Below, piece after piece: positions 27,074-30,087 of a DNA stretch of 51,027 nt. Both the position numbers and the translations under genes were made by a program. Each line of letters opens with the position of its first letter. Within the stretch, counting starts at the first letter, position 1. Source of the stretch: Elusimicrobiota bacterium (lineage in GTDB: Bacteria; Elusimicrobiota; Endomicrobiia; CG1-02-37-114; XYA2-FULL-39-19); assembly GCA_018816525.1 (NCBI GenBank), contig JAHIVV010000048.1:1-51027 (forward strand), written 5' to 3'. The notes beneath the pieces are model-generated. The model saw nothing but the letters and a program-made list of their open reading frames with translations. It had not been told where the DNA came from and did not search any database.

Positions 27074-27436
27074 ATGATCAAGAAAACTACACCGCTGAGT
27101 ATAGCGAAAGAATCCGCAAAATTAATGTGGGCCAAAAAAACCAAAGATATTGTATTGCTAAACATCAGCAAACTTACCGCGATCGCTGACTATTTTGTGA
27201 TCGGCACCGTAGAATCAAGCGTTCAAATGGACGCAGTAATTGACTCAATCAAAAAAAACTTTAAGCAAAAAGGCCTTCTTCAGCTATCGCGCCAGGAAAT
27301 GAAGGATTCATCTCCAAGCTGGCAGATAATAGATTACGGCAGCGTGGTTGTGCACGTAATGACAAAAGAAGCGCGGGAATTCTACTCACTGGAAAATGTA
27401 TGGCACAAAGCAAGAAAACTTTCGTTCAAGAAATAA
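27074..27436 (+). CDS. rsfS: Ribosomal silencing factor RsfS
   Basis: It binds L14 on the 50S subunit and blocks subunit joining when nutrients are low. The 120 residues show the family pattern: DIVLLNISKLTAIADYFVIGT, SVQMDAVIDSI, and the C-terminal SWQIIDYGSVVVHVMTKEAREFYSLENVW. A taaggaga site precedes the ATG. The end overlaps argS by 37 bases in another frame. Confidence 0.94.
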   Translation: MIKKTTPLSIAKESAKLMWAKKTKDIVLLNISKLTAIADYFVIGTVESSVQMDAVIDSIKKNFKQKGLLQLSRQEMKDSSPSWQIIDYGSVVVHVMTKEAREFYSLENVWHKARKLSFKK

Positions 27437-29040
27437 GAAATAATATTTACGAACTGCTTGAATTAGAAAACGATTTTGAATTCAGCCTGGAAGAACCTCC
27501 TCAGAACTTCAATGCTGACCTTTCAACAAACGTAGTCCTTCTGCTGGCAAAAAAAGAAAAAACCAACCCAAAAACGCTTTCTGAAGGAATTATAAAAAAA
27601 CTTGAGAAAGCGCCGTATTTTTCTAAAATAGAATTTGTTCCTCCGGGTTTCCTGAATTTTCATATTTCAAAAGAACTTCTTGAGAGTGAACTTGAAAAAG
27701 TCCTGGCCCAAGGGGACAAATACCCTGAAATTGATTTATACGACGGCAACCCGGTACTAATTGATTTTGTTTCAAGCAACCCCACAGGCCCTCTGCATAT
27801 CGGCCACGGCAGGGGCGCTGTAATAGGAGACGCTCTTGCCAGAATATACACCCAGTTAGGTTTTAAAATCCTGAAAGAATATTACGTAAACGATGTAGGC
27901 GTCCAGATGAATTTTCTGGCGCAATCCGTTGAACTGCAGGCAAAAATAATCAAAAGCGAAGATGTTTCATCAATCAGCACAGAAAAACTATATAAGGGAA
28001 CCTACATCGCGGAAATTGCAAAAAAGCTGCTTGAAGAATACCGGGATAAAATACCGGAAATTTCTGTTATCAAGGAATTTGCGGTTACTGAAATATTGAA
28101 GGATATAAGAAGCGACCTAGCAGAATTTAAAGTTGAGTTTGATTCCTGGCAGTATGAGTCAGAGCTGCATAATAAAGGCATAGTCAAAAAAGTGGTTGAA
28201 GGCCTCCATAAAGACGGATTTTTGTTTGAAAAAGATTCCGCTCTCTGGTTCAAAACCGAAGATTCAATAGATGAGAAGGACCGCGTTATCCAAAAACAGG
28301 ACGGCAGGTACACTTATTTCGGCGCGGATATAGCTTATCACTGGTACAAATTTGAAAGAGGCTATAAAAAACTACTGAATATCTGGGGCTGTGACCATCA
28401 CGGGTATGTTCCAAGAATTAAATCCGCCATGTTATCTATCGGGCATAAACCGGAAGATGTGGAAGTATTGCTCTACCAGCTTGTATCTCTTTCAAGAAAC
28501 GGCGAAAGGGTCAGGATGTCAACAAGAGCGGGGGAATTTGTGACCCTGCGTGAAGTGCGGGAAGAAATAGGAACGGATGCCGCCAGATACTTCCTCTCTA
28601 CAAAAACTCCAGGCACACACCTGGAATTTGACCTGGAACTGGCAAAAAAGAAAGCAAATGAAAATCCGATATTTTATATTCAATACGCCCACACGCGCTG
28701 CTGCGGAATCCTGAGAGAAGCGGAAAAAACCCAATCAATCTCTGCTGTATCTAAAATTGACTATAGCCTTTTGAAAGAAAATCTCGAGCACCAGATTATT
28801 AAAAAAATAACTTTGTACCCCGACGTACTGCACAGATGCATAAAAAATCTGTCGCCCCATTACCTGGCAACCTATTTGCTTGATTTTGCCGGGTTATTTC
28901 ACAGATATTACGACACTCACCGCGTAGTTACCCAGGATCCAGAACAAACCCGGGCCAGGATCGCATTAATAAAATCAATAAAAATTACATTAAAAAATGG
29001 GCTTTCTTTGCTTGCTATCACTGCCCCGGAGAAAATGTGA
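27400..29040 (+). CDS. argS: Arginyl-tRNA synthetase
   Basis: This class I synthetase charges tRNA-Arg. In the 546 residues, the N-terminal additional domain is at about 1-90. The HIGH motif (133-136) lies in SSNPTGPLHIGHGRGAVIGD. The KMSKS region is degenerate, as in many ArgRS (RVRMSTRAGEFV). The anticodon-binding domain ends NGLSLLAITAPEKM, the usual C-terminal signature. The ATG lies within rsfS; the good match right after it (EIRNNIYELLELE) supports the start. Confidence 0.95.
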   Translation: MAQSKKTFVQEIRNNIYELLELENDFEFSLEEPPQNFNADLSTNVVLLLAKKEKTNPKTLSEGIIKKLEKAPYFSKIEFVPPGFLNFHISKELLESELEKVLAQGDKYPEIDLYDGNPVLIDFVSSNPTGPLHIGHGRGAVIGDALARIYTQLGFKILKEYYVNDVGVQMNFLAQSVELQAKIIKSEDVSSISTEKLYKGTYIAEIAKKLLEEYRDKIPEISVIKEFAVTEILKDIRSDLAEFKVEFDSWQYESELHNKGIVKKVVEGLHKDGFLFEKDSALWFKTEDSIDEKDRVIQKQDGRYTYFGADIAYHWYKFERGYKKLLNIWGCDHHGYVPRIKSAMLSIGHKPEDVEVLLYQLVSLSRNGERVRMSTRAGEFVTLREVREEIGTDAARYFLSTKTPGTHLEFDLELAKKKANENPIFYIQYAHTRCCGILREAEKTQSISAVSKIDYSLLKENLEHQIIKKITLYPDVLHRCIKNLSPHYLATYLLDFAGLFHRYYDTHRVVTQDPEQTRARIALIKSIKITLKNGLSLLAITAPEKM

Positions 29041-30062
29041 TGAACATTTTTAAAGACATCCCAAAAAGAATCCTTGTATCCTTCATGTTAATGGTAATTG
29101 TTTTTTTTGTAGGCACTTTCGGTTATATGGTCATAGAACACTGGAAGTTCCTTGACTCGCTTTTTATGACTGTTATTACTCTTGCCACTGTAGGCTACGG
29201 CGAAACTAACCCGCTTACAACCCAAGGCAGGATATTCACCATTTTTCTTATTTTAACAGGCATCGGAATTTTAACCTATGTATTTACCACCGGCATGTCA
29301 TTTCTAATTGAAGGCGAACTAACCGGCCTTATGAGGAGGCGTAAAATGGAAAAAGCAATAAAAGCGCTGAAAAACCATTATATTATCTGTGTAGACAGTG
29401 AAACCGGCGAATATGCAATAGAAGAATTTGTAAAAACCAAACAGGACGTAGTAGTTATTACAAACAACAAACATATTGCCGAGAAACTGAACGAGAGCAT
29501 ACTATTAATTTACGGCAACCCTGAAGAAGATAGAACTCTTCAAACAGCAGGCATAGAAAACGCTGCCGGCCTGGTTTCCATATTGCAGGAAGACAAAGAT
29601 AATCTTTTTGTGGTACTTTCAGCAAAAGGGTTTAACCCCAACCTCAAAATAGTTACCCAGGCAAAAGAACGGGAAAGTGTTGCAAAGTTGCAGAAAGCCG
29701 GCGCGGACGAAGTTATATCAACAAACTTAATAGGAGGCATGAGAATCGCATCCGCAGCTCTAAGGCCTACGGTGGTTTCTTTTCTTGACCGGATGCTTTA
29801 CCAGACAGTTGATAATGAACCCCTGCGCATCGAAGAAGAAACAATTTCCGACAAATCGCCGCTGACAGGAAAAGCGCTTTCTGATTGCAATATAAACGAA
29901 AAAGTCGGACTGATCGTAATTGCAATAAGGGAAAGTAAAACTGAAAAATTTATCTATAACCCTAAACAAAACTATAAACTTAATTCCGGTGATACCTTAA
30001 TTGTAATCGGCACGCCAACTCAGGTAAAACAGCTTCATAGTTTGATAGAGGTGGGGGTTTGA
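29037..30062 (+). CDS. Two-TM potassium channel with RCK (TrkA-N/TrkA-C) domains
   Basis: The 341-residue protein has TM1 at about 12-33, a pore helix with selectivity filter TVGYG (51-55), TM2 at about 66-91, an RCK_N domain at about 113-235 and an RCK_C domain at about 250-335. The layout is that of MthK-type channels. The Rossmann glycine motif is degenerate (CVDSETGEY), as it also is in MthK. By alignment from memory, the MthK calcium ligands E210/E212 correspond to Gln and Lys here, so calcium gating is doubtful. The start is GTG 29037 or ATG 29040, both overlapping the argS stop. An internal ATG with a strong ribosome-binding site lies at 29346. Confidence 0.88.
   Translation: MMNIFKDIPKRILVSFMLMVIVFFVGTFGYMVIEHWKFLDSLFMTVITLATVGYGETNPLTTQGRIFTIFLILTGIGILTYVFTTGMSFLIEGELTGLMRRRKMEKAIKALKNHYIICVDSETGEYAIEEFVKTKQDVVVITNNKHIAEKLNESILLIYGNPEEDRTLQTAGIENAAGLVSILQEDKDNLFVVLSAKGFNPNLKIVTQAKERESVAKLQKAGADEVISTNLIGGMRIASAALRPTVVSFLDRMLYQTVDNEPLRIEEETISDKSPLTGKALSDCNINEKVGLIVIAIRESKTEKFIYNPKQNYKLNSGDTLIVIGTPTQVKQLHSLIEVGV
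29334..29348 (+). promoter_or_regulatory. Internal ribosome-binding site and ATG within the K+ channel gene
   Basis: AGGAGG at 29334-29339, six bases, then in-frame ATG at 29346 (Met104), just after TM2 and before the RCK domain. Translation from here would give a soluble 238-residue RCK protein. The AGGAGG also encodes two Arg residues, so it could be coincidental. Confidence 0.55.
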
Positions 30063-30087
30063 CAAGCTTCCTTAAAATGGATATAAT
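30059..30087 (+). promoter_or_regulatory. Perfect consensus sigma70-like promoter
   Basis: TTGACA (30059-30064), a 17-base spacer and TATAAT (30082-30087), all optimal. It overlaps the stop codon of the K+ channel gene. The start point would be near 30094, 29 bases before the ATG of the frameshifted secreted gene. Confidence 0.83.

Follow-up and report, generated by a model that had tools for sequence, protein, structure and literature searches.

The archaeal potassium channel MthK of Methanothermobacter is produced together with a free RCK subunit, which is translated from an internal start at Met107 (PMC9440719), and the model of an eight-RCK gating ring for single-RCK channels rests on this protein. 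A free subunit is needed because one RCK domain per chain provides four domains to a ring that requires eight (PMC9440719; PMC3510474). GsuK and Slo/BK also hold a ring of eight RCK domains under a tetrameric pore; these channels need no free subunit since each chain carries two RCK domains (PMC3510474). Most prokaryotic single-RCK channels have been stated to need an internal start (PMC3510474), and a Met conserved in the linkers of MthK and Kch homologues was noted in 2009 (PMC2920069). The relevance of internal starts in bacteria had been cast into doubt by Escherichia coli Kch, in which removal of a putative internal start left expression and function unaltered, as the work of Kuo et al. 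2003 is cited in PMC2920069. Outside the channels, the C-terminal domain of Rpn genes-within-genes is likewise translated separately by in-frame internal initiation, although Rpn belongs to another protein family with a toxin-antitoxin role (PMC10327210).

The window, by which we mean the whole 51,027-nucleotide stretch analysed from an Elusimicrobiota bacterium, encodes on its forward strand, as for all features of this locus given below, a 340-residue K+ channel (29040-30062) in which the Ion_trans_2, TrkA_N and TrkA_C profiles all match above cut-off. The two-helix (2TM) pore domain spans residues 17-90 (29088-29309; Ion_trans_2 match 5e-17) and contains the TVGYG selectivity filter. It is followed towards the C-terminus by one RCK N-lobe (TrkA_N, 29379-29720) and one C-lobe (TrkA_C, 29832-30044), giving a single RCK domain per chain rather than the tandem of GsuK. 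A predicted structural model places the pore helices at residues 7-33 and 61-90, the end of TM2 near residue 90, a linker helix at 93-109 and the RCK domain from 114. On these sequence features we classify the gene as an MthK-type channel of two membrane helices and one RCK domain. MthK is both its best solved relative by sequence (8e-37, phmmer) and its top fold match, and the two have in common the 2TM pore, the single RCK domain and the placing of the internal start, 10 residues ahead of the first RCK strand; the window channel differs in being bacterial and in having about 25% identity to MthK in the fold match. An alignment-based scan of genome contigs (a single-protein query scan gave no relatives) identified Elusimicrobia bacterium RIFOXYA2_FULL_39_19 as the nearest named relative at 70% identity. 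A perfect sigma-70 consensus promoter (TTGACA-17-TATAAT) is present on the forward strand at 30059-30087, across the channel stop codon.

MthK is gated by Ca2+, but the ligand of the window channel is probably different, as the residues of the established MthK Ca2+ site (D184, E210 and E212) align with Ile, Gln and Lys in the phmmer alignment. The RCK glycine motif is also degenerate (CVDSETG, residues 117-123, 29388-29408), most homologues having CGxGxxG and MthK a likewise degenerate CGWSEST, and nucleotide binding may have been lost in the lineage of the window channel.

The linker after TM2 is encoded in frame with the channel ORF by CTT ATG AGG AGG CGT AAA ATG GAA AAA, comprising Met98 (29331-29333), an internal Shine-Dalgarno (SD) sequence AGGAGG formed by the codons of Arg99-Arg100 (29334-29339) and a candidate internal start codon, the ATG of Met103 (29346-29348). 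An earlier sequence-only reading of this DNA had described AGGAGG six bases ahead of an in-frame Met, and CGTAAA does give a spacer of 6 nt; counting from ATG 29040 makes the Met residue 103, and counting from the alternative full-length start, GTG 29037, makes it 104. That reading also set this Met at the position of MthK Met107, which holds when counted from the RCK side, each Met preceding the conserved His of the first RCK strand by 10 residues (M107-H117 in MthK; M103-H113 here). A 5-residue linker gap in the phmmer alignment instead sets M107 opposite Met98, which has no SD and is not conserved, whereas Met103 is conserved. Initiation at Met103 would give a second product of 238 residues and ~26 kDa (29346-30062), beginning within the modelled linker helix and holding all of TrkA_N and TrkA_C; as TM2 ends at about residue 90 and the RCK domain starts at 114, a start at residue 103 leaves the whole domain intact. 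E. coli Kch likewise combines an RCK domain with a linker Met, but this internal Met240, removal of which was reported to have no effect (PMC2920069), lies 5 residues before the RCK strand and has a weak and distant AAAGGAA as its SD.

The internal ribosome-binding site is the better of the two in the gene, as had been proposed, since the full-length start is preceded only by a weak GGAG (29028-29031). Upstream lies argS (27400-29040), whose stop codon (29038-29040) shares one base with ATG 29040 (TGATG) and two with GTG 29037; this overlap, also pointed out earlier, is real in the window but not conserved in the closest relative. Counting both strands of the window, AGGAGG is followed by a start codon within 10 nt in four places, of which only this one is inside a long gene. 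Most long ORFs (window 75-50445) have no SD of at least 4 nt at their candidate starts, against which the internal SD stands out. RNA structure around the internal start showed nothing unusual (z -0.63), the SD being partly paired in the predicted fold.

Among 74 Elusimicrobiota channel genes, an SD match of at least 5 nt at the right spacing was found in 86%, compared to 10% in synonymous shuffles, and the internal ATG was present in all 74. The check on Arg codon choice suggested by the sequence-only reading gave a clear bias, AGG or CGG followed by AGG or AGA being favoured at the site although CGC is the commonest Arg codon in these genes (736 of 1608); CGC appears under the SD only twice, both times at the first codon. 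A comparison of the window gene with its closest relative shows synonymous changes at 116 of the 226 residues that the two share, Met and Trp being excluded, and none in either SD Arg codon. Homologues that keep the Arg residues but have lost the SD, which had been expected to speak against an internal start, do exist in a few cases (e.g., L115, AAACGCCGCCGCATG), the SD being otherwise mostly kept.

We extended the comparison to 326 distinct homologues, taken in part from named genomes and plasmids but mostly from eight phylum-level samples, whose seeds included Geobacter, Leeia, Ignavibacteriales, an actinobacterium, a Verrucomicrobium, Acidobacteria (Blastocatellia) and Nitrospirae; group labels of the sampled genomes rest on the named seed of each sample. 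The bacteria sampled lie outside Bacillota and Cyanobacteria, and the Archaea are represented by one haloarchaeal plasmid gene. Using 142 representatives at 60% identity and a simple SD score, we shuffled synonymous codons gene by gene, so that each protein and its codon usage stayed the same. An SD of at least 4 nt together with a start codon at this column was found in 94 of the 142 genes against 19.6 expected (z 23.5), with no other column of the gene above z 2.6, these z-scores overstating independence because homologues are related. The SD alone was present upstream of this column in 97 genes (26.6 expected), and GGAG under the SD core in 88 of 142 (13.8 expected in a second null based on each gene's own codon usage). 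Both elements were kept in 56 of 95 clusters at 50% identity and 22 of 46 at 42% (counts without a recomputed null), and the signal persisted, with the SD in 70 of 107, once loci found by peptide patterns were excluded.

The pattern across phyla is striking because the amino acids vary while the nucleotides stay. On a tree built without the linker, genes that keep the SD show at least 37 changes of the residues in its core, with 19 different dipeptides in use; the SD itself has been gained or lost at least 40 times, and the start residue has switched between Met, Val and Leu at least 22 times. GGAG was found in 97 of 102 genes with Arg-Arg at the core, 81 of 92 with Gly-Arg and all nine with Lys-Glu, in the last case as AAGGAG; variants across phyla comprise GGGAGG (Gly-Arg), AAGGAG (Lys-Glu), AGGGAG (Arg-Glu), ACGGAG (Thr-Glu) and GGGGAG (Gly-Glu). 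Of 55 genes with Leu at the start position, 48 use TTG (7.8 expected), and of 29 with Val, 28 use GTG (9.7 expected). The distance from a start at this column to the first RCK strand is always 10 residues, and some genes without one have a Met three codons later, often with the SD shifted too (L199, L204 and L286). Compared with any candidate full-length start, the internal SD is stronger in 74 of 124 genes, equal in 37 and weaker in 13. These codon patterns indicate that the SD signal acts at the nucleotide level, beyond the needs of protein or codon usage, and that related channel genes in many bacterial phyla retain an internal start signal.

The explanation that we prefer, with a probability of roughly 0.87, is that internal initiation supplies an octameric gating ring with free RCK subunits of ~26 kDa, and the comparative evidence supports the internal start proposed in the sequence-only reading. 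Two proteins very probably arise from the gene, the complete channel and its sensor domain on its own. Ribosomes starting at 29040 would make the channel subunit of pore and RCK, and those binding AGGAGG at 29334 and starting at ATG 29346 would yield a 238-residue soluble RCK subunit. As in MthK, the eight-domain ring beneath the tetrameric pore would then be assembled from four RCK domains attached to channel subunits and four free ones. That the short product is made, in what ratio to the full one, and where it sits in the ring are inferred from sequence; because the internal SD is usually the stronger one, free RCK may equal or exceed the channel in abundance. The mechanism is already known from archaeal MthK. 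No report of a conserved internal SD or start-codon constraint, and none of the cross-phylum codon evidence, was found in the literature searched, which mostly excluded subscription papers, so that priority is not certain. We also favour, with rather less confidence, a wider proposal in which internal initiation is ancestral and general for RCK rings built from one gene in SD-using bacteria, is selected directly at the nucleotide level in most single-RCK channels, those of the 6TM-RCK type among them, and is tuned to make free RCK no less strongly than the channel.

It is improbable, though the best of the alternatives, that the internal start is used and the free RCK serves elsewhere, as a cytosolic sensor or as the partner of another transporter. 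Free RCK rings are well established in KtrA/TrkA systems, and an internal SD often much stronger than the full-length one could yield an excess of free RCK. Against such a role stands the precedent of MthK (PMC9440719). TrkA_N detected no stand-alone RCK gene in the organism's own genome (98.6% complete) but two proteins, the window channel and a Kef-type antiporter, and the latter has its own RCK.

Still less probable, and in our judgement very unlikely, is that the SD-like sequence serves as a programmed pause site for ribosomes, aiding membrane insertion of the pore domain, with no second protein made. SD-like elements do pause ribosomes on E. coli membrane-protein mRNAs, and the site comes after TM2, but the reported pauses are at codons 16-60 and before TM2 (PMC4359368), whereas the window site is at codons 99-100, past TM2. 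A pause needs no start codon, yet TTG, GTG or ATG is kept at a fixed spacing as the residue changes, and SD and start shift together. We can dismiss a constraint on the protein only, in which the linker needs Arg-Arg and Met and AGGAGG reflects chance or codon bias, since, despite the invariance of Arg99, Arg100 and Met103 in an alignment of 15 Elusimicrobiota proteins, synonymous codons at the site are strongly non-random, which rules out the chance match of two common post-TM2 Arg codons that the sequence-only reading had allowed for, and other phyla keep the nucleotides and not the residues. Initiation is the best reading of the site because a pause does not require a start codon and a protein constraint would not choose GGAG.

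The codon-level signature provides independent evidence, from hundreds of genes, for selection on a second start, and it indicates which species to test as well as predicting lineages without an internal start. Codon-optimised (recoded) genes used in heterologous expression could silently lose the second subunit.

By the score used here, approximately 29% of genes have no SD of at least 4 nt; Poribacteria, one Verrucomicrobium and many members of the Bacteroidota sample are among them. A minority of homologues keep neither SD nor start. Only 28% of the Bacteroidota sample have the SD, with the Met mostly kept. Many Bacteroidota do not rely on SD sequences, and the low rate therefore fits a signal for initiation. 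The haloarchaeal plasmid homologue (L164) had no comparable site in the stretch examined. Pairing of SD-less channels with a neighbouring stand-alone RCK gene was not supported, as it held in only one of 95 cases within the flanks. A TrkA_N search of 148 genomes and the fetched loci returned Kef-like proteins, of which only four linkers were available for comparison, and channel-receiver fusions, but no GsuK-type tandem-RCK channels.

Two further architectures were recognised by eye. In L374 (forward strand, frame from 1117) and L376 (reverse strand), a 2TM-RCK K+ channel and a C-terminal response-regulator receiver domain form one ORF, with a further Hpt-like tail in L374, and an SD-like stretch and ATG are kept ahead of the RCK. 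A group of Pseudomonadota loci (L218-L233) combines a long N-terminal membrane region of about six helices with an RCK domain, in some cases with extra TrkA_C-like repeats, and these mostly keep AAGGAG or AGGGAG/AGGGAA and an ATG at the same site.
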